Shown here in pieces: positions 304 through 8,162 of a stretch of 64,000 bases of DNA. Source of the DNA: Spirosoma aureum. GTDB lineage: Bacteria > Bacteroidota > Bacteroidia > Cytophagales > Spirosomataceae. The position numbers and the translations under genes are program-made. The stretch covers positions 2,626,501 to 2,690,500 of the forward strand of contig NZ_CP050063.1 of NCBI RefSeq assembly GCF_011604685.1. The letters are read 5' to 3'. The notes beneath the pieces are model-generated. The model was not told where the DNA came from. It worked only from the letters and a program-made list of their open reading frames with translations, and did not search any database. Positions within the stretch are counted from its first letter, which is position 1. The number at the start of each line of letters is the position of its first letter.

Positions 304-789
304 TTAAATTTCATCTTCCAAGAAGAAAGCTTTGATAAAGCGTATCAAATTTTCTTGAGTTTCTTTCTCGCCTGACGATGCTAGAACTTCTCTAGCAAAC
401 AGTTTTACTTTCTTATCATTTTCCTTTTTCTGTATTGTCATCTCTTCATACAACTTAAACTGTGTATAGAGGTGATCATATTTCTGTTCGAAGGACTTCA
501 AATCTGCACGCACTCCAATTACCTCCCGTAACCTCTCTTTTAATTCAGCATTCATTTTTTCCAACTCCTTTACTCGTTCACTAGTTTCGCTACTTCCATA
601 GCCTAGTAATTCAGGCGTTGAAACACCCAGTGCAGACGCGATTTCCTCAATCCGTTCTAGTGTCAATTTCTTACCCTTCTTTTCAATCTTGGCGTAGTTT
701 GACACATCCACTCCTAAGGCCGTAGCCATCTCACTAAGCTTGATTCGCTTACTCTCTCGCAGTGCCTTTATATGCTCTGATAATTCCAT
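304..789 (-). CDS. XRE-family HTH repressor with C-terminal coiled coil
   Basis: 161 aa. Residues 1-65 form a Cro/C1-type helix-turn-helix (LSEHIKALRESKRIKLSEMA, then the recognition helix in VDVSNYAKIEKKGKK), ending with the usual ALGVSTPELLGYG. Residues 70-125 are rich in E, K, L and R and look like a coiled coil, probably for dimerisation. It is transcribed away from the small DNA-binding protein and integrase genes, the normal position of a lysogeny-type repressor in integrative elements and phages. It probably binds the repeats in 802-910 and controls both divergent promoters; that role is inferred from position. Confidence 0.85.
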   Translation of the reverse strand: MELSEHIKALRESKRIKLSEMATALGVDVSNYAKIEKKGKKLTLERIEEIASALGVSTPELLGYGSSETSERVKELEKMNAELKERLREVIGVRADLKSFEQKYDHLYTQFKLYEEMTIQKKENDKKVKLFAREVLASSGEKETQENLIRFIKAFFLEDEI

Positions 790-801
790 ACCCCAAACTT
801 A

Positions 802-908
802 TTGGTTTTATTCGAACAATTCGTTGGTAATAATTTGCCAATATAATGGCAATAATTACTTGTGTTGTTGGTTTTATATTGCCATGTTTGTGGCCTAAAT
901 AAACCAAT
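802..908. promoter_or_regulatory. Divergent control region with operator-like repeats
   Basis: The 124-bp spacer between the repressor and the rightward genes holds a TTGCCA-N6-TGGCAA inverted repeat (835-852) and a third TTGCCA half site (879-884). It also has two exact TTGGTTTTAT direct repeats (802-811, 868-877) and an inverted relative, ATAAACCAAT, just before the downstream start. This density of short symmetric sites between divergently transcribed regulators is typical of an operator. Which protein binds which site is not shown by the sequence. Confidence 0.55.
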
Positions 909-913
909 TGAAA

Positions 914-1132
914 ATGTTAGGCACGAAGAGCACTACTACTTTAAGCGTTGCTATTCATGATTATGAGCAGCGTAGCAACCTCAAATTCACGCCAGACGAG
1001 AAGTTTTATGATCGTATTGGTATTAACCGGATACGGTTCTGGCAACTCGTCAAGGGCAAAAAGCGAATGTTTACGGATGAAGCCCAAGCATTAGCCAATT
1101 ACTTCGGTATTACTGTCACTGATCTTCTCTAA
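914..1132 (+). CDS. Small HTH-like DNA-binding protein, possible excisionase or Cro-like regulator
   Basis: 72 aa from the ATG at 914; a TTG two codons upstream is possible but less likely. The sequence has an alpha-helical, DNA-binding look: NRIRFWQLVKGKKRMFTDEA followed by QALANYFGITVTDLL, the end of a Cro/XRE-like fold. It lies 20 bp upstream of the integrase gene and on the same strand, so it is likely co-transcribed with it. Position and size fit either an excisionase/directionality factor or the Cro-type counterpart of the divergent repressor. I cannot separate these options. Confidence 0.65.
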   Translation: MLGTKSTTTLSVAIHDYEQRSNLKFTPDEKFYDRIGINRIRFWQLVKGKKRMFTDEAQALANYFGITVTDLL

Positions 1133-1152: not shown

Positions 1153-2442
1153 ATGCAAAAGCAACTTATCAGAAAACGGCTTACCAACAAGGTTACTGTG
1201 AGTCCGCGCAAGCTGGAACGTACTCCTGAATTTTCAGTCATTTTTATTCCGCGTAAACTTGGCCGAAAAAGCAAATCAGCGCCTATTTACTGTCGGTTGA
1301 CTTATGCCGGTCAACGAACCATGTTTGCAACGGGCGTTCATTGCACCCTGGCTGATTTTGATGCCAAAGCAGTAACCATTAACGGCCAGCCTGATCAAAC
1401 GCGAGTCTTACAAGCCCTGAAAGCGCAAGCTGAAAGGGGCTTTTCCGATTTACGGGTAACAGGACGAAAAATTAGTACCAGTGCTATTCGTGACTTGGCA
1501 CTAGGTAAAACCCTGACCTTTGAGCAAGTCCCTATTTTGGTCGTTGCTTTTAAGCATTTTTTAGATGAACGCTCTAAACCCGAAGTCCAGACGGGCGATA
1601 TTGATTTAGATACGCATAAACAGCATGAGCGTTGGGCGATTCGCATTGCTGAATACTTCGTAAAACAGTATGGCTCTAATTGTGAGCTGAATCAAGTCAA
1701 ACCGGCTGATGCAAAGGGCTTATTGATCGACCTCAAACAGCAAAGTAAGCACTGTCACAATTATGCTGAAAAGATCGTTCAGCATACCAAACGGATACTG
1801 AATTACGCAGTAGAAAAAGAATGGATTAGCCGTAATCCATTCATGAATTACCGCGCTCGTCGGGAATTTAAAAAAGGTGAGTTTCTGACGGCTGAAGAAT
1901 TAAGCCTGATCGAAGAAAGCCGGTTAGCTAGTCCGGTCCTGAACCGTATCCGCTCAATCTTCTTATTCCAGTGTTATACTGGACTTGCTTACAAGGATGT
2001 GGCGCAACTCCGACAAAGCCACATTCTCACCGATAAGGAAACCGGCTGGCAGTATATCAAAAAAGAACGGGAAAAAAGCGGGGTTACTCAGATAGTACCC
2101 CTTACCCCACAAGCACTGGCGATTCTGGAACACTACCGGGAGGATAAGGACTGCAAGCGAACGGGCTTGCTCTTACCCATTCCCTCTAACCAGAAAACCA
2201 ATGGCTATCTGCAACAAATTGCTGCCTGTCTCAATATCTCCAAGATTGTCCGCACCCACGTAGCCCGACGTACCTTCTCCAATTTGCTCAAGGCAAAGGG
2301 CATGGACGTGAAAAACATATCGGTGATGTTAGGCCATACCAACACGGCCATGACTGAACGGCACTATCTGGATATTTCACCCGCTATGGTCATTAAGAAC
2401 ATGCAACGGGTCATTCGGGTAGCGAAATTAAAACAGGCATGA
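1153..2442 (+). CDS. Tyrosine site-specific recombinase (integrase), IntDOT-like
   Basis: 429 aa. Residues 25-110 resemble the arm-binding domain of Bacteroidota integrases, about 130-235 the SAM-like core-binding domain, and about 245-425 the catalytic domain. Catalytic residues visible are Lys308, the HxxR box at His369-Arg372, His395 in MLGHT and the nucleophile Tyr405 in ERHYLDI. The usual first arginine (TGLR) is Ala279 here (CYTGLAYKDV); loss of Arg I is known for CTnDOT-type integrases. The start is the ATG at 1153, and the stop overlaps the next gene as ATGA. It should integrate and, with a partner, excise the element. Confidence 0.93.
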   Translation: MQKQLIRKRLTNKVTVSPRKLERTPEFSVIFIPRKLGRKSKSAPIYCRLTYAGQRTMFATGVHCTLADFDAKAVTINGQPDQTRVLQALKAQAERGFSDLRVTGRKISTSAIRDLALGKTLTFEQVPILVVAFKHFLDERSKPEVQTGDIDLDTHKQHERWAIRIAEYFVKQYGSNCELNQVKPADAKGLLIDLKQQSKHCHNYAEKIVQHTKRILNYAVEKEWISRNPFMNYRARREFKKGEFLTAEELSLIEESRLASPVLNRIRSIFLFQCYTGLAYKDVAQLRQSHILTDKETGWQYIKKEREKSGVTQIVPLTPQALAILEHYREDKDCKRTGLLLPIPSNQKTNGYLQQIAACLNISKIVRTHVARRTFSNLLKAKGMDVKNISVMLGHTNTAMTERHYLDISPAMVIKNMQRVIRVAKLKQA

Positions 2443-2685: not shown

Positions 2686-2738
2686 AGTCAATTTCAGTGC
2701 TGGTTAATCGCTACTAACCCGCTTTGGTATACAAGTCT

Positions 2739-3818
2739 ATGAATTTATCCGACCTTTTACAAACCCGCCTAACTGATGCCAGCAATGTTCCTCCTATTGA
2801 GACAACGATCACCGTCAAGGACGGGATTTTTGCCATTAAAGGAGATATTTCGTTTGTCTCTGGTATGGCAAAATCGGGCAAGTCAACCATTTGCCGCTAC
2901 ATCATAGCTACGGCCCTGATGGAAACGATACCGGACGATTTCGATTCGTTAAGCATTCGCTCCATCTACTGTGAAGGCCGTCCGGTGGTCTATATTGATA
3001 CCGAGCAACCCAAAGCCTTTACGATGAAGGCGAAAGACGAAATCAAACGGCTTTTGCGAACCGAAACCCTTCCTGAAAATCTGCACATTTTCAATTGGCG
3101 GCATCAGACCTATAAGGAAAACCGGGAAGCAATTCAATTGCTGTTTGATCACTTCACCGATTCGGCTTTATGGGTTGTGGATGGTATCACCGATTTTCTG
3201 AGTACGGCCAATGACGAAGAGAAAAGTAATGAATTGATTAACTTTTTCATGCGCTACTCGACCAGCCTAAACACGACTATTGTTCTACTCATCCATGAAA
3301 TTCAAAATACGGGCAAGTTGCGGGGGCATTTAGGCAGTGAAGCCGAACGAAAGTGCGGGGGGGCTATTTCTATTCGCAAAGACCGGGAAACCAAAACGCA
3401 TTGGATACAACCCAAATTAATTCGAGGGTCAGGTGATTTTGATAGCCACGCCTTCCAGTACGACGAAGACCAAAAAGGGTTTGTGTCTCTGTCCGATGCC
3501 AAGTCCAAAGAATTACGTACCCAACTCGATAAGCAGGAAAGCCGACTAGCCGAACTTCACCGTTTGGCTCAAGCCATTTATGGCGAAGAAATCCGCATTA
3601 CGCGCACCGAGTTGAAAAAGGGTTTACGGCAACACATATCCCGCAAGCCCGGACAGGGAGACGAAGCCTATGACAAGGTAATTCAGCGAACCATTAAAGA
3701 CATGCTGGATAACTATAATATCATTACCAACCTGGGCGAACCCAAGGACTCCTTCAAGTATCTGTGCGAAGTAGAGCCAGCCCCCAGCATGTTAAGCCTG
3801 TTTCTGAATGGCAAATAG
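2739..3818 (+). CDS. RecA-like (RepA/AAA_25 type) replication ATPase
   Basis: 359 aa from the ATG at 2739; a TTG at 2724 is in frame but weaker. Walker A is GMAKSGKST (residues 42-50), an acidic pair lies in YIDTEQP (87-91), Walker B is ALWVVDG with Asp148, and LLIHEIQ (183-189) resembles the sensor segment of hexameric helicases. Residues 245-359 are a charged, probably winged-helix C-terminus. This arrangement matches RepA-like ATPases on plasmids and mobilisable elements of Bacteroidota. Together with the primase-like gene and the repeats between them it suggests that the excised element replicates. Helicase activity itself is inferred. Confidence 0.8.
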   Translation: MNLSDLLQTRLTDASNVPPIETTITVKDGIFAIKGDISFVSGMAKSGKSTICRYIIATALMETIPDDFDSLSIRSIYCEGRPVVYIDTEQPKAFTMKAKDEIKRLLRTETLPENLHIFNWRHQTYKENREAIQLLFDHFTDSALWVVDGITDFLSTANDEEKSNELINFFMRYSTSLNTTIVLLIHEIQNTGKLRGHLGSEAERKCGGAISIRKDRETKTHWIQPKLIRGSGDFDSHAFQYDEDQKGFVSLSDAKSKELRTQLDKQESRLAELHRLAQAIYGEEIRITRTELKKGLRQHISRKPGQGDEAYDKVIQRTIKDMLDNYNIITNLGEPKDSFKYLCEVEPAPSMLSLFLNGK

Positions 3819-3829
3819 GACAAAAGACA

Positions 3830-4136
3830 AGACGGACGGGCGAATACATGTATTTCCGTCCGTCTCTTTATAAAGGACGGACAGGACAGCTATATATAGG
3901 GGGTTTGTCCTGTCTGTCCAGTCCAAAAAGGAGTTTGTCCGTCCACATCTAGAATTGGACAGAGCCAAGAAGAATAGACCGCTGAAAGAAAAAGCAACTG
4001 TGGTTTTGTAGAAAATTTGGCAAATCGGCCAAAAGTAAGGCGAAAACAAAATATTATTTGTCGCCCAAAACTGGACATTCAGGACGGACAGGACAAACCC
4101 CTATACATAGTGAAAGTTGTCCGTCCGTGTCCGTCC
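3830..4136. repeat. GGACGGACA iteron-like cluster, candidate replication origin
   Basis: The roughly 400-bp gap between the ATPase and primase genes is dominated by one motif. GGACGGACAGGACA occurs at 3875-3888 and 4082-4095, and its complement TGTCCGTCC at 3936-3944, 4118-4126 and 4128-4136, with a one-base variant at 3911-3919. AGACGGACGG/CCGTCCGTCT (3830-3839/3856-3865) flank the palindrome AATACATGTATT. A 29-30-bp imperfect inverted repeat pairs 3890-3919 with 4082-4110 (two mismatches and one indel). Repeats of this kind between a replicative ATPase and a primase are what an iteron origin looks like. The alternative is an autoregulatory operator for the primase gene. Confidence 0.6.
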
Positions 4137-4214
4137 GGTGATTTGTCCCCATTTCAGACAGGCCCAAAAAAGCGCACCAAATTTCATTCTGTTTCACTTA
4201 ATCAATTTCCACCG

Positions 4215-5096
4215 ATGTATTTTGATCAAGCCACCGTAAATCAACTAAAAGAAACCCCCATTACCAGTTACCTGCATAGCTTGGGGATTGAACCGGTCCG
4301 TTCGTCCGGTCAGGAGCTTATTTACTGCTCCCCCTTGACGGGTGAACGCAGTCCATCATTTTATGTCAACCCGAAAAAGAATCGGTTTAATTGCTTTAGC
4401 AGTGGCGAGAAAGGCGACGTGATCCGGCTGGTTAGTTTAGTGGAAAAAATTCCCTTCAAACCCGCCTGTGAACGACTCTGTGGCTTCGACGCTGAACAAC
4501 CCCCTTCCTTTTCTTTCAGCGGTCTATCTATTGCCCCTACAACCCCAAAAACCGACGAGTCGTCAGCTATGACCTTGCTCGACGAACGAGCCTTATTTAA
4601 TCGCGTCCTGATGGATTATGTCATGAGCCGGGGTATTCCACCCACCTTCGCCAAACGATACCTCTATGAGATTCGCTACCTCAATAAAAACCGGGCCTAT
4701 TACGCTGTCGGTTTCAAGACCGATAAGGATAGCTACGCTTTACGCTCCAAGCTCTTTAAAGGCTGGTTAGGTGTCAGTGCCATCCGAACCATTCCGGTAG
4801 CAGGCTCCGACGAAATTGATTTGTTTGAAGGCTTTTTTGATTTTCTGTCTTACCTAACCATGAACCTGTTCGTACGTCCGGTTTGCACGACGATCATTCT
4901 TAATTCCACAACCAACCTCAAGCAAGCTCTGTCGGCACTGGAAGGCGCGAAACGCATCAACTGTTATTTTGACAATGACACTGCCGGACGTGCGGCCTAT
5001 GGCAAATTACAGGCCGTTGGTTTCCCTGTTAAAGACCGCTCAAGTCTATACGCTAATCACAAGGATTTGAATGAGCTACTACAGCAAAAGTCTTAA
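4215..5096 (+). CDS. CHC2/Toprim primase-like protein
   Basis: 293 aa when started at the ATG at 4215; the in-frame extension upstream runs through the repeat cluster and is unlikely to be translated. Residues 30-75 resemble the CHC2 zinc finger (SPSFYVNPKKNRFNCF), but only Cys38 and Cys60 remain of the usual CxxH...CxxC set. The Toprim domain follows, with Glu205 in LFEGFFDF and the DxD pair Asp253/Asp255 in YFDNDTAGRAA. Such primase-like proteins are common in Bacteroidota mobile elements. It probably primes replication with the upstream ATPase. The degenerate zinc site raises the question whether it binds metal. Confidence 0.82.
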   Translation: MYFDQATVNQLKETPITSYLHSLGIEPVRSSGQELIYCSPLTGERSPSFYVNPKKNRFNCFSSGEKGDVIRLVSLVEKIPFKPACERLCGFDAEQPPSFSFSGLSIAPTTPKTDESSAMTLLDERALFNRVLMDYVMSRGIPPTFAKRYLYEIRYLNKNRAYYAVGFKTDKDSYALRSKLFKGWLGVSAIRTIPVAGSDEIDLFEGFFDFLSYLTMNLFVRPVCTTIILNSTTNLKQALSALEGAKRINCYFDNDTAGRAAYGKLQAVGFPVKDRSSLYANHKDLNELLQQKS

Positions 5097-5234
5097 TAGG
5101 CTTTTGGGAGGCTTTTTAAGGGCTTCCGGCATGGTTTTGCCCGATTAGGAGCAGCTTATCATGTGCTTATACATTGCTTATGCAGCGATTATACAAAACT
5201 TATCGAGTCCAATTCACTACTTAACTTTATCCCA

Positions 5235-5432
5235 ATGGAAGAACCAACCAAATCTAAACCCGTACGTAATTTCAAATATGAACGCGCCGAACGCTATGGG
5301 GAGCGGGTGTACTATCAAAAGATCTGTTTACACTGTAACGGTAAGTACGAAAGTATCAGGATGGATTCGGCCTTTTGTTGTCATCGATGCGCAAAGGCGG
5401 CCAGGAGGAAAAAAAATAATAAGTATAACTAA
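5235..5432 (+). CDS. Small zinc-finger protein
   Basis: 65 aa from the ATG at 5235. An in-frame start at 5163 exists, but its extra N-terminus looks non-coding. Two Cys pairs, CLHC (residues 32-35) and CCHRC (51-55), are spaced like a treble-clef or zinc-ribbon finger, and the C-terminus is a basic KAARRKKNNKYN tail. It may bind DNA or RNA. Its last codons run into the 38-bp palindrome that separates it from the convergent caspase gene. It is the last rightward gene of the replication module. Its function is unknown; a regulator or mobilisation accessory protein is possible. Confidence 0.6.
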   Translation: MEEPTKSKPVRNFKYERAERYGERVYYQKICLHCNGKYESIRMDSAFCCHRCAKAARRKKNNKYN

Positions 5433-5466
5433 AGATAAGGATGGAAATTTCCATCCTTATCTTTAG
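5429..5466. terminator. 38-bp perfect palindrome, bidirectional terminator
   Basis: Left arm CTAAAGATAAGGATGGAAA is followed immediately by its exact complement, with no unpaired loop in the symmetric form. It sits between the stop of the zinc-finger gene and the stop of the convergent caspase gene, overlapping the end of the former. Position and symmetry fit termination in both directions and insulation of the cargo operon. Confidence 0.75.
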
Positions 5467-5467
5467 T

Positions 5468-6973
5468 CTATGTTAAGGAATTTATAAACTGTTCAATAAT
5501 AGAAATGGTATCTACTATTTTACTGTGGCCTTCAATACTAATTTTCAATCTACTTTCTTTGATAAAAAATTCATATACTATCTTGTCATTTGTTGTATAT
5601 TTAATAGTTTCTTTTATGTCATCTTCCACCAAACTACCTTTTTTTTCTTCAACTGAATCTTCAAATTCGCTAACTAAACTCTCAAAGCTATTTTCATTAT
5701 ACTGAACTGGAAAATAAGCCACCTTAAGGGCCACAGGGAATATATAGTCAAAATTAAATGGTAAACTTTCTTTAGGTGCTTTTAGAGATAGTTGGCGTTT
5801 TATGAAGGCATATTTGATATAATTATTGCTTTGCTGTATTGATATTCTATAAACAAAATAGTCAGTTATAATTTCGCCTTCGCCCAGTGTGATTCGATCA
5901 ATATTTTTTATGATACCTTTTCTCCTTAAGTTTAAAACATCTTTAATTTTCAAGTAAATTGCCTGAAGCTCTTCAAGTATAAATGTTTGAAATACTGAAA
6001 TGACAAATATTTTTGCACTAGACGAATTACCATCAGGAGGATAATGACTTCTCTTAAATCCAGGGGCTTTTTCTACTAACATTAATGATTCATCAACTAA
6101 AGTAATATCCTTTGAAAGTAGCTTTAGATCAACGTATTCATCAGCTATAGCTTCATTTGGATTTGAAACTTCTTCGTTATATTCAAAAATTACAAATGAA
6201 TTTGATGTATTTATAGTTGCATAGGGTGTCTGACTATATTTAATATTAGTTTTTGTTGCAATAAAGTCTTGAACAGATGACTTCAAATAGTCTCTAAGCG
6301 AAGTGTCTGTAAGCTGCCCATTTATCAATGCACTCCTATTCCGACCACTTAGCCCTTGAAATAAAAAATATGACCATATCCCATTTTGTAATGTGTCATC
6401 TGAGTATGATTTCTCAGTCGGGGAGCATGCATAATAAATTGCATGGTAGGGTATATCTTTTACGTACTTTTCTAGCCCTCTAGAGGATAATTCACCAATA
6501 GACTCTCTAGAAGTAAGTTTGTCTTTTAACTCTTTAGCGCATGCATCTAAAAAAATCAAGCTCTGTTTACACTTTGATTTACTTAAGGGAGCTAAAACTA
6601 GCTCATTTAATGATAGAGTTGTGTCCGTAAGATTTTGGATACTGGAATCCCAAGCCGTAAGCCTATTACCATGTCCTGCTTCATAGAAACCATGACCTGC
6701 ATAATAGAAAATAAATCGATCAGTTTCAGTAAGGTTTCTAATGAGATATTGTATCTCATCATTTAGGGCTGTATTGGAAGCAAGGCTGTCAACTCTAATA
6801 TGAATATTTTCTTCTTTAACACCTAGTGAACTAATTAAAACATTTTGAAAATCTTCAGCATCTTTTAGTGCGTACTTAACTGAAGTAATCTCAGAAAAAC
6901 GATAGCTTTCTATCGCAATAATTATTGCGATAGTATCTTTAATAATCACCTGTCCAATATTGGTAATATCCAC
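5468..6973 (-). CDS. Caspase-like (peptidase C14) protein
   Basis: 501 aa. Residues 12-265 form a caspase-like fold: IIAIESYRF start, ALKDAEDF, the catalytic histidine in YYAGHGFYE (His94) and the catalytic cysteine in IFLDACAKE (Cys145), then YYACSPTEKSYS and GIWSYFLFQGL, which are typical of bacterial metacaspase/peptidase C14 proteins. Residues 290-501 are a separate domain, beta-rich with acidic stretches, that I do not recognise. The gene starts 11 bp after the HNH gene on the same strand, so the two are co-transcribed. In several defence systems a caspase-like protease is the effector activated by a partner; here that role is inferred from the context. Confidence 0.85.
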   Translation of the reverse strand: MDITNIGQVIIKDTIAIIIAIESYRFSEITSVKYALKDAEDFQNVLISSLGVKEENIHIRVDSLASNTALNDEIQYLIRNLTETDRFIFYYAGHGFYEAGHGNRLTAWDSSIQNLTDTTLSLNELVLAPLSKSKCKQSLIFLDACAKELKDKLTSRESIGELSSRGLEKYVKDIPYHAIYYACSPTEKSYSDDTLQNGIWSYFLFQGLSGRNRSALINGQLTDTSLRDYLKSSVQDFIATKTNIKYSQTPYATINTSNSFVIFEYNEEVSNPNEAIADEYVDLKLLSKDITLVDESLMLVEKAPGFKRSHYPPDGNSSSAKIFVISVFQTFILEELQAIYLKIKDVLNLRRKGIIKNIDRITLGEGEIITDYFVYRISIQQSNNYIKYAFIKRQLSLKAPKESLPFNFDYIFPVALKVAYFPVQYNENSFESLVSEFEDSVEEKKGSLVEDDIKETIKYTTNDKIVYEFFIKESRLKISIEGHSKIVDTISIIEQFINSLT

Positions 6974-6984
6974 AGTAAAATCTT

Positions 6985-7941
6985 TTAATTTTGTTCAAAA
7001 TTATTATTTATTATAGATTGTAAATAAATCAAATCGCTTACATCTTGGAGACGATGTATCATACTATGGCAATTTGAACAAAGTACTATAAAATCCGTCT
7101 GAGCATTCAATGAAATCTTCTCACCAATTAATTTTGAGAGAGGCTTCAAGTGGTGAGCCTCAATAAAATCTTTTCCAAGGATACCATACTTACTTTCAAA
7201 GTTAAATCCACATCCTTTACACGTGTAACCTTGAATATCTTTTACTTTTTTAACAAGTTTTGCGTTTCTTTCTATACGTTTATGTAATCTTATTTTTTGT
7301 AAATTTTCTACTCCTAAATAATTTTCTTCGTTTGATTCTTTATCATATTGAGAAATTGAAATTAATTCATTATAGAATAATGAATCATATGCTTTAATAA
7401 TATGTAATATATCGTTACATAGCTCTGAATCAGTTGGAAGGTCTACTAAAGGATAATATTTTGCAATAATATTACCAGACTCATACAGCGATGCTAAATC
7501 TGAATTTATACTGTTCGTACTAGTTAAACATATTTTCTTTTCCTTAAAAACTATATTATTTAAATCTAACTGCATTCTATAATCTTCTGCCTTCAGCTCT
7601 AATACTTTCTTTGCGCCTTTTCTGTATTTTTCTTTAATTTCAGTTACACCTTGATTCAGTGATAAATAAAATCCGCTCATATCACTTTTAAAAAGAAAAA
7701 CTGGATAGTATCCTGATTGAGCACTACTAGTAATAAAAGTATCAAATATGGCTATCCATGGGATTATAGTCCAGTTCCCAGCGCCAGCAGACCCTTTAAT
7801 TAAATATCTATCATTATTAATAAACTTTGAAATTATATCTGGTAACGTATGTCTGATGGTTTTTGCTAGAGGGTGTCCAGTAAATCGTTGCGAATATGCT
7901 ATTGTGTACTTTTTAAGCACCTCTTCAAAATAGACTATCAT
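6985..7941 (-). CDS. McrB-N-like (DUF3578) domain fused to HNH endonuclease
   Basis: 318 aa. Residues 10-180 match the McrB N-terminal-like domain (DUF3578): GHPLAKTIRHTLP, YLIKGSAGAGNWTIIPWIAI, SGYYPVFLF and GFYLSLNQGVTEI are its hallmarks. Residues 225-300 are an HNH nuclease with zinc cysteines Cys241/Cys244 (CKGC) and Cys288/Cys291 (LCSNCH), the catalytic EAHHL (His263/His264) and a final His296. This architecture is known from type IV, modified-DNA restriction enzymes such as ScoMcrA-like proteins. It is the first gene of an operon with the caspase gene. It may sense or cut modified phage DNA. Base use is AT-rich, unlike the core genes. Confidence 0.85.
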   Translation of the reverse strand: MIVYFEEVLKKYTIAYSQRFTGHPLAKTIRHTLPDIISKFINNDRYLIKGSAGAGNWTIIPWIAIFDTFITSSAQSGYYPVFLFKSDMSGFYLSLNQGVTEIKEKYRKGAKKVLELKAEDYRMQLDLNNIVFKEKKICLTSTNSINSDLASLYESGNIIAKYYPLVDLPTDSELCNDILHIIKAYDSLFYNELISISQYDKESNEENYLGVENLQKIRLHKRIERNAKLVKKVKDIQGYTCKGCGFNFESKYGILGKDFIEAHHLKPLSKLIGEKISLNAQTDFIVLCSNCHSMIHRLQDVSDLIYLQSIINNNFEQN

Positions 7942-8019: not shown

Positions 8020-8030
8020 TTCTAAACTAA

Positions 8031-8064
8031 AAAAAGCACTCAAATCGCTGATTATGAGTGCTTT
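8031..8064 (-). terminator. tRNA-Ser terminator
   Basis: A 10-bp stem (AAAGCACTCA / TGAGTGCTTT) with a 12-nt loop lies 14 bp beyond the 3' end of tRNA-Ser. Read on the minus strand it ends in a run of seven T, a standard Rho-independent terminator. If the tRNA is the att site, this terminator may have been brought in by the element. Confidence 0.8.
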
Positions 8065-8077
8065 AATTTTTCTTTTG

Positions 8078-8162
8078 CAGAGAGAGAGGGATTCGAACCC
8101 CCGGACCTGTGACAGTCTTCGGTTTTCAAGACCGACGCAATCGACCACTCTGCCATCTCTCT
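8078..8162 (-). tRNA. tRNA-Ser (anticodon UGA)
   Basis: 85 nt. The acceptor stem is AGAGAGA/TCTCTCT with discriminator G, the anticodon arm is TCGGT-CTTGAAA-ACCGA with anticodon TGA, a long variable arm marks a class II tRNA, and the T arm is GGGGG-TTCGAAT-CCCTC. No CCA is encoded. A strong promoter lies directly upstream. Its 3' end faces the integrase-bearing region. Confidence 0.95.

Follow-up and report, generated by a model that had tools for sequence, protein, structure and literature searches.

The window analysed here, a stretch of 64,000 nucleotides from Spirosoma aureum, contains two neighbouring open reading frames on the minus strand that are separated by 11 bp. The upstream frame (6985..7941, minus strand, ATG start) encodes a protein of 318 aa, which by Pfam and homologue alignment is an MrcB_N (DUF3578)-HNH nuclease, and the downstream frame (5468..6973, minus strand, GTG start) encodes a protein of 501 aa, in which the same two sources of evidence place a caspase domain ahead of a C-terminal domain (CTD), hereafter the caspase-CTD protein. 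As such, reading frames and Pfam matches agree with the initial annotation, which had put a DUF3578 and HNH gene in front of a caspase gene at this position, strand and spacing. Directly after the caspase stop follows a perfect hairpin (5427..5468, minus strand; 20-nt arms, 100% complementary), which was recovered in the terminator scan as a likely terminator; both genes are thus probably on one transcript, and co-transcription of nuclease and caspase is likely.

The two genes are part of an element of 10.3 kb that is integrated at a tRNA-Ser gene. The target, tRNA-Ser (tga), occupies 8077..8162 on the minus strand, and its last 14 nt belong to the attachment-site repeat that forms the right end of the element (8029..8090). 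The left copy of this 62-nt direct repeat was found at G000:C1:2624266, that is 10,263 bp leftward and about 2.2 kb outside the window, and the two copies are identical at 56 of 62 positions. Between the repeats, and apart from the cargo, the element encodes an HTH repressor-like protein (304..789, minus strand; Pfam), a small HTH-like protein (908..1132, plus strand; match below the Pfam cut-off), a tyrosine integrase (1153..2442, plus strand; PF00589, E 2e-16), an AAA ATPase that we take to be RepA-like (2724..3818, plus strand; weak AAA_25 match, below cut-off), a CHC2-Toprim primase (4017..5096, plus strand; Pfam) and, between primase and cargo, a small open reading frame with Cys/His pairs (5163..5432, plus strand). 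The core genes have a G+C content of 43-49%, the two cargo genes one of 29% and 32%. With a restriction-type nuclease and a caspase enclosed by a direct repeat at tRNA-Ser, the earlier proposal of defence-type cargo on an integrated element is borne out.

Two further observations concern the element itself. Its left end, just beyond the window and reaching over the first bases of it, encodes a repeat protein of 710 aa (L156:1121-3253), for which reading by eye is suggestive of a beta-propeller with a lipoprotein-like start and hence of a second cargo. Long-range, perfect or near-perfect inverted repeats (3900-3919 with 4082-4101, and 3974-3992 with 4509-4527 of the window) are located within the primase gene and immediately in front of it, where they possibly represent an origin or a regulatory structure.

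Matches to the primase occur in 68 of 150 genomes of the host family, a count that includes the genome of the window; the latter has a second primase-type copy (G000:C1:6339751-6340614), with no tRNA in the 9.9 kb analysed there (L185). We compared the stretches 3' of the primase in 20 other copies (L177-L196). These slots hold varied AT-rich genes, a number of the copies have short open reading frames after the primase, and in seven of the 20 the slot is closed by a tRNA gene (L180, L181, L183, L184, L187, L192 and L195). A PADLOC scan at 1e-10 or better, run without a control set on 10 of the 16 cargo open reading frames in six of the seven tRNA-bounded slots, returned defence-type genes in five of the six, namely NsnA (L181), a Pycsar cyclase (L183), a type II methylase with a restriction enzyme (L184), a type II methylase (L187) and a PDC-S41/Nhi/AbiO-like gene (L192); the slot of L195, L195:3469-6108 included, gave no PADLOC match. 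The slot that the pair occupies in the window is thus one in which defence-type genes are frequent. The slot of this element family is also a promising place in which to look for new defence operons, with L195:3469-6108, L182:4614-7550 and L189:3002-5896 as candidates for new defence systems.

In the nuclease, the MrcB_N domain, a predicted reader of modified DNA, covers aa 8-188 (7378..7920, minus strand; PF12102, E 1.8e-52, 178 bits against a cut-off of 25), and the HNH domain covers aa 241-297 (7051..7221, minus strand; PF01844, E 1.9e-5, 25.2 bits against a cut-off of 21.4). H263, H264, N290 and H296 of the HNH domain are invariant in all 27 rows of an alignment hand-picked from 120 matches listed out of 1,112 found. 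The structures of the EcoKMcrB N-domain, which is described as a reader of modified cytosine in the part of the source drawn on here (PMC3874153), gave a weak sequence match to the window nuclease (E 0.0047). By its sequence features the protein is hence classified as carrying an MrcB_N reader domain and an intact HNH motif of the modification-dependent (type IV) type. The family is common, with 1,112 matches at 1e-5, and matches are found in four of 395 genomes of the window's phylum, the window counted, and in no plasmid record at 1e-30. Compared with its 26 relatives in the alignment, the window nuclease has no distinguishing insertion, only its last two residues being extra, which speaks against a gated pro-nuclease; a gated nuclease at this locus was rejected on this ground.

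The caspase (C14) domain of the second protein, with a MALT1-like fold, extends over aa 15-254 of 501 (6212..6931, minus strand; PF00656, E 1.8e-14). The claim that its catalytic dyad is intact stands, as His94 (codon 6692..6694, minus strand) and Cys145 (codon 6539..6541, minus strand) are both conserved without exception in an alignment of homologues (49/49), the rows being hand-picked from 120 matches listed out of 313 found. In a second set of 43 rows, consisting of the window, 28 further loci and 14 homologues, His94 is found in 43/43 and Cys145 in 39/43. D38 and D143 are invariant in this set (43/43); D-x-C is the para/metacaspase signature that goes with a basic P1 residue. The four exceptions at position 145 (L014, L017, L020 and L038; L038 has a Cys one residue ahead) all keep the CTD and are possibly non-catalytic scaffolds.

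Beyond residue 254, no Pfam match above cut-off was obtained. The initial annotation had postulated an unnamed C-terminal domain of about 210 residues, and a real conserved domain is indeed present there, comprising 226 residues (5471..6148, minus strand). It is covered by most of the homologues P0002-P0080, after which the matches drop sharply to caspase-only ones, and even at a threshold as lax as E<=1 no Pfam family matches more than one CTD out of 29. The window protein scores 345.5 bits with a caspase profile and 210 bits with a CTD profile, being itself a row of both. The structural comparison that had been proposed for this domain succeeded in part: the predicted model is of the alpha/beta type with a 30-residue helix, and among the families covered by the fold searches it found no confident match and no clue to a ligand.

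In whole-genome searches, caspase-CTD proteins were found in two of 395 genomes of the window's phylum, the window counted (17 of the 395 match at E<=1e-25, 15 of them in the caspase part only), in one of 291 genomes of its order, which is the window itself (E<=1e-50), and in one of 398 genomes of the L010 phylum, namely the genome of L010 itself (E<=1e-45). The caspase matched no phage record at 1e-5 and two plasmid records at 1e-10, both from Agrobacterium and one of them L085. The genome of the window has two more caspase-domain frames of 407 and 412 aa (G000:C1:2768904-2774573), which are close to each other and match the caspase part of the query only. In the tree, the window protein groups with P0002, P0003 and P0005 (support 100/99) and, as part of a broader group, with L004, L006, L008 and P0008 (99/99).

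With respect to the pairing of the two genes, the 28 other caspase-CTD loci (25 genome contigs, one viral contig, L083, one Agrobacterium plasmid, L085, and one genome, L087) contain no MrcB-HNH gene nearby at E<=1e-3, within flanks that range from almost nothing to 7-10 kb per side; the genome-contig loci were picked by similarity from the best 80 of 440 confirmed matches (at least 592 stretches). Conversely, none of 47 loci fetched by the MrcB-HNH alignment (L109-L155) has a caspase match, although only six of them span most of the profile, and many others match in the HNH part only. These six near-complete loci (L109, L110, L112-L115) have no caspase nearby, with flanks of only about 1.5 kb per side for L109 and L110, a longer fusion protein in L115 and a start missing at the contig end in L114. 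A conserved pair of MrcB-HNH and caspase is therefore rejected within this sample (0/28 and 0/6 loci), and the recurring two-gene system that had been postulated is seen in the window only, so that "system" is here a claim on a single locus. A lack of any adjacent homologues was the refuting outcome named in the initial annotation, and it is what this sample shows. Since the nearest caspase relatives, P0002, P0003 and P0005, lie outside the neighbourhood sample, the pair may yet recur. A literature search by title and start of abstract, the scope of which excluded subscription papers and most preprints, returned nothing on the CTD family or on MrcB_N-HNH with a caspase.

As to the other point that the initial annotation had proposed to check, whether homologues lie in defence islands, caspase-CTD genes stand beside varied defence genes. 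The caspase gene follows HamA and HamB in L004 (PADLOC, E 7.6e-130 and E 0, respectively) and lies inside an Hma operon in L024 (HmaA-caspase-HmaB-HmaC, L024:2200-13972), where it overlaps HmaB by 4 bp; HmaA also precedes it in L083, whose contig ends within the caspase. In L031 (L031:2739-10004), type III Mod and Res genes are followed by the caspase, which is separated from either neighbour by 10 bp, and by a protein that has a cytidine-deaminase zinc motif and a HATPase_c_4 domain. A pP_pnuc nuclease gene is located directly ahead of the caspase in L014, where PADLOC names it Aga_Nuclease, and in L085, with AbiEi near in the former and AbiE and Gabija-type genes near in the latter. Further neighbours are a GajB-like piece and then a KAP ATPase (L005), a convergent Dsr1 (L012), a SIR2 protein (L087), a DUF4062 protein (L007), an FRG protein (L030) and a UvrD helicase (L009), the last being a general helicase that could be discounted. 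Plainly non-defence are the gene for a dehydrogenase of the methanopterin kind that the caspase follows in L038 and the subtilase gene that it precedes in L027. No PADLOC match was obtained for the HATPase neighbour in L010, the neighbours in L029 and L087:3058-4086, and in L008, L012, L017, L037 and L039 the nearest neighbours are on the opposite strand only. HamA in L004 keeps its GEVK motif and Res in L031 its PD...ETK motif, so that the caspase seems to be an addition to working systems of this kind rather than a substitute for a dead nuclease; a lost HamA activity in L004 was rejected on account of the GEVK motif.

Loci that share a partner type are sisters in the tree, as are the caspases of L014 and L085 as well as those of L024 and L083, the latter two diverged (branches 0.32 and 0.43, support 100/100). 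The nearest relatives of the window protein for which the neighbourhood is known have other neighbours. The partner thus changes, yet the linkage of HmaA and caspase has outlasted considerable divergence.

For a comparison with other caspases, neighbours were taken as longest-ORF calls of at least 100 aa, up to two per side, and matched against PADLOC at 1e-15. The 99 family neighbours matched 200 PADLOC families, with at least 16 of the 99 proteins matching in nine loci (L004, L005, L009, L012, L014, L024, L031, L083 and L085); 14 of the 16 were attributed singly, and two in L085 (GajB and Aga_Nuclease) were deduced from the tally and Pfam. Among 99 neighbours of caspases that lack the CTD, two proteins matched one PADLOC family; these controls are 99 of 102 proteins available in 27 hand-picked loci out of 73 caspase-only ones. 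The contrast by protein (at least 16/99 vs 2/99) corresponds to a Fisher p of 0.0008 if neighbours are treated as independent, which they are not, and it is weaker by locus (at least 9/28 vs at most 2/27, Fisher p 0.04); 19 of the 28 caspase-CTD loci have no neighbour-attributable match at 1e-15, with attribution drawn from 25 of the 200 families. Since the controls are taxonomically narrower, being mostly Bacteroidota whereas the family loci span several phyla, and since neighbours are non-independent, we regard the contrast as an indication, not as proof, that the caspase-CTD family is linked to defence. What recurs in the sample is the caspase beside varying DNA-targeting defence modules.

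It would be very improbable, from our point of view, that the caspase-CTD protein is merely a regulatory protease or dead scaffold that is carried passively and has no immune role. To our knowledge, the function of most caspases in prokaryotes has yet to be established, and the four of 28 loci without Cys at position 145 as well as the members with non-defence neighbours would fit such passive carriage. It is, however, at odds with the neighbour contrast to other caspases, with the defence slot and with the 49 of 49 intact dyads of the first alignment.

The caspase-CTD protein is most likely a portable MALT1-like protease effector that is attached to a DNA-targeting gene, with independent action being nearly as likely. 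We regard this family, as an effector that is portable and linked to defence, as a stronger finding than the pair in the window. For the window, we tentatively favour, with somewhat less than even confidence, that the caspase and the adjacent DNA-targeting gene act jointly, as one anti-phage cargo operon of the tRNA-Ser element. One could then envisage that the MrcB_N domain recognises a modified base, with the HNH domain making the cut, resulting in type IV-like restriction as the domain families would suggest, and that the CTD senses the outcome of the partner's attack on DNA, be it broken or processed DNA or a complex of partner and DNA. Such sensing may allow dimerisation of the caspase, followed by cleavage of a cellular protein at a site that probably has a basic residue in P1, and the protease would thereby stop the cell if restriction alone fails. 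Joint action is favoured by the one-strand layout, the single hairpin at the end, the defence neighbours of the family and the habit of the slot; the occurrence of the pair in the window only, the several caspases that look like single genes and a CTD that offers no clue to its ligand count against it, as do the lack of a distinguishing insertion in the nuclease, the non-defence neighbours of some members and the four loci without Cys at position 145.

A plausible, if appreciably less than probable, alternative is that two independent defence genes share slot and transcript, with the MrcB_N-HNH protein acting as a stand-alone enzyme of type IV-like restriction, the caspase-CTD protein being a single-gene sensor-effector, and its nearness to other systems reflecting defence islands. 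The MrcB-HNH family is common and had no caspase nearby at any of the six near-complete loci, for several caspase-CTD genes a partner is not apparent, so that the protein may act alone, and a single protein that combines an effector with a conserved second domain could be sufficient. Harder to reconcile with independence are the tight arrangements, that is the 11-bp spacing in the window and the overlaps of 4 bp or gaps of 10 and 12 bp between caspase and defence genes in L024, L085, L031 and L083, as well as the HmaA-caspase linkage that is kept over diverged sequences and the position of the caspase gene within the Hma operon of L024.

One could speculate further, as a bolder and rather unlikely reading, that caspase-CTD proteins are portable guard proteases that watch unrelated DNA-attacking systems, such as type III and type IV restriction, Hachiman, Hma and the pPIWI-associated nuclease, and kill the cell when an attack on DNA is under way or blocked. 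PrrC is an anticodon nuclease that guards a restriction enzyme, and a guard protease, if real, would be its protease counterpart. If one caspase type, with a single conserved sensor-like domain, moves among restriction enzymes, Hachiman and Hma, this would mean that clearing and suicide layers of immunity are combined as modules; the several natural partners would offer a means to find one shared activating signal.

The following comparison with described systems draws on parts of the respective sources. With McrBC, i.e. DUF3578 type IV restriction as represented by EcoKMcrB, the window nuclease shares the MrcB_N domain. McrBC, however, consists of the McrB GTPase and McrC, whereas the window protein has no GTPase domain and no McrC and carries the HNH domain as a direct fusion; Pfam domains of McrB GTPase and McrC are absent from both proteins and from the seven other element open reading frames scanned. 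The two-gene EACC1-caspase system (PMC7159879) has the caspase domain in common with the window, and the match to the EACC1-associated caspase NF047832 is weak (52.4 bits, far below the cut-off of 140 bits), with no EACC1 gene identified among the element open reading frames scanned. TIR-activated caspase-like immunity (Rousset et al. 2025, via PMC13174449) likewise shares a caspase-like effector of phage defence, and no TIR domain was found among the nine element open reading frames scanned. More generally, bacterial caspase effectors have been described within type III CRISPR, gasdermin, NLR, Thoeris and canu systems (PMC12799240).

The closest known system to the pair is canu (CanABC), in which, as far as the part of PMC12799240 considered here describes it, a MALT1-like caspase activates a gated MBL-type nuclease. 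Both have a MALT1-like caspase that is encoded together with a nuclease in a defence setting, defence islands in the case of canu, and thus a partnership of protease and nuclease. This likeness and the experimental precedent of nuclease activation by a protease in CanAB/CanC and HamMAB (PMC12799240) would support a cascade in which the window caspase cleaves and so activates an adjacent gated pro-nuclease. We nevertheless consider it improbable, since CanC is of the MBL type, contains gating insertions and is encoded downstream of the caspase gene, whereas the window nuclease is an HNH protein that lies upstream and has no insertion. In addition, canu has CanB as a third gene where the window locus has two, and CanA ends in an Ig-like domain, whereas the CTD of the window protein is modelled as alpha/beta with its long helix, a comparison that extends to the families covered by the fold searches. 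A last parallel is offered by the pairs of nuclease and trypsin-like protease that Hachiman, AVAST, Lamassu and DRT have acquired on repeated occasions (PMC12799240). In these pairs the protease is fused to a defence enzyme, whereas the caspase-CTD protein is free-standing with a CTD of its own; what they have in common is a protease that is passed among unrelated defence systems, of which Hachiman is one in either case.
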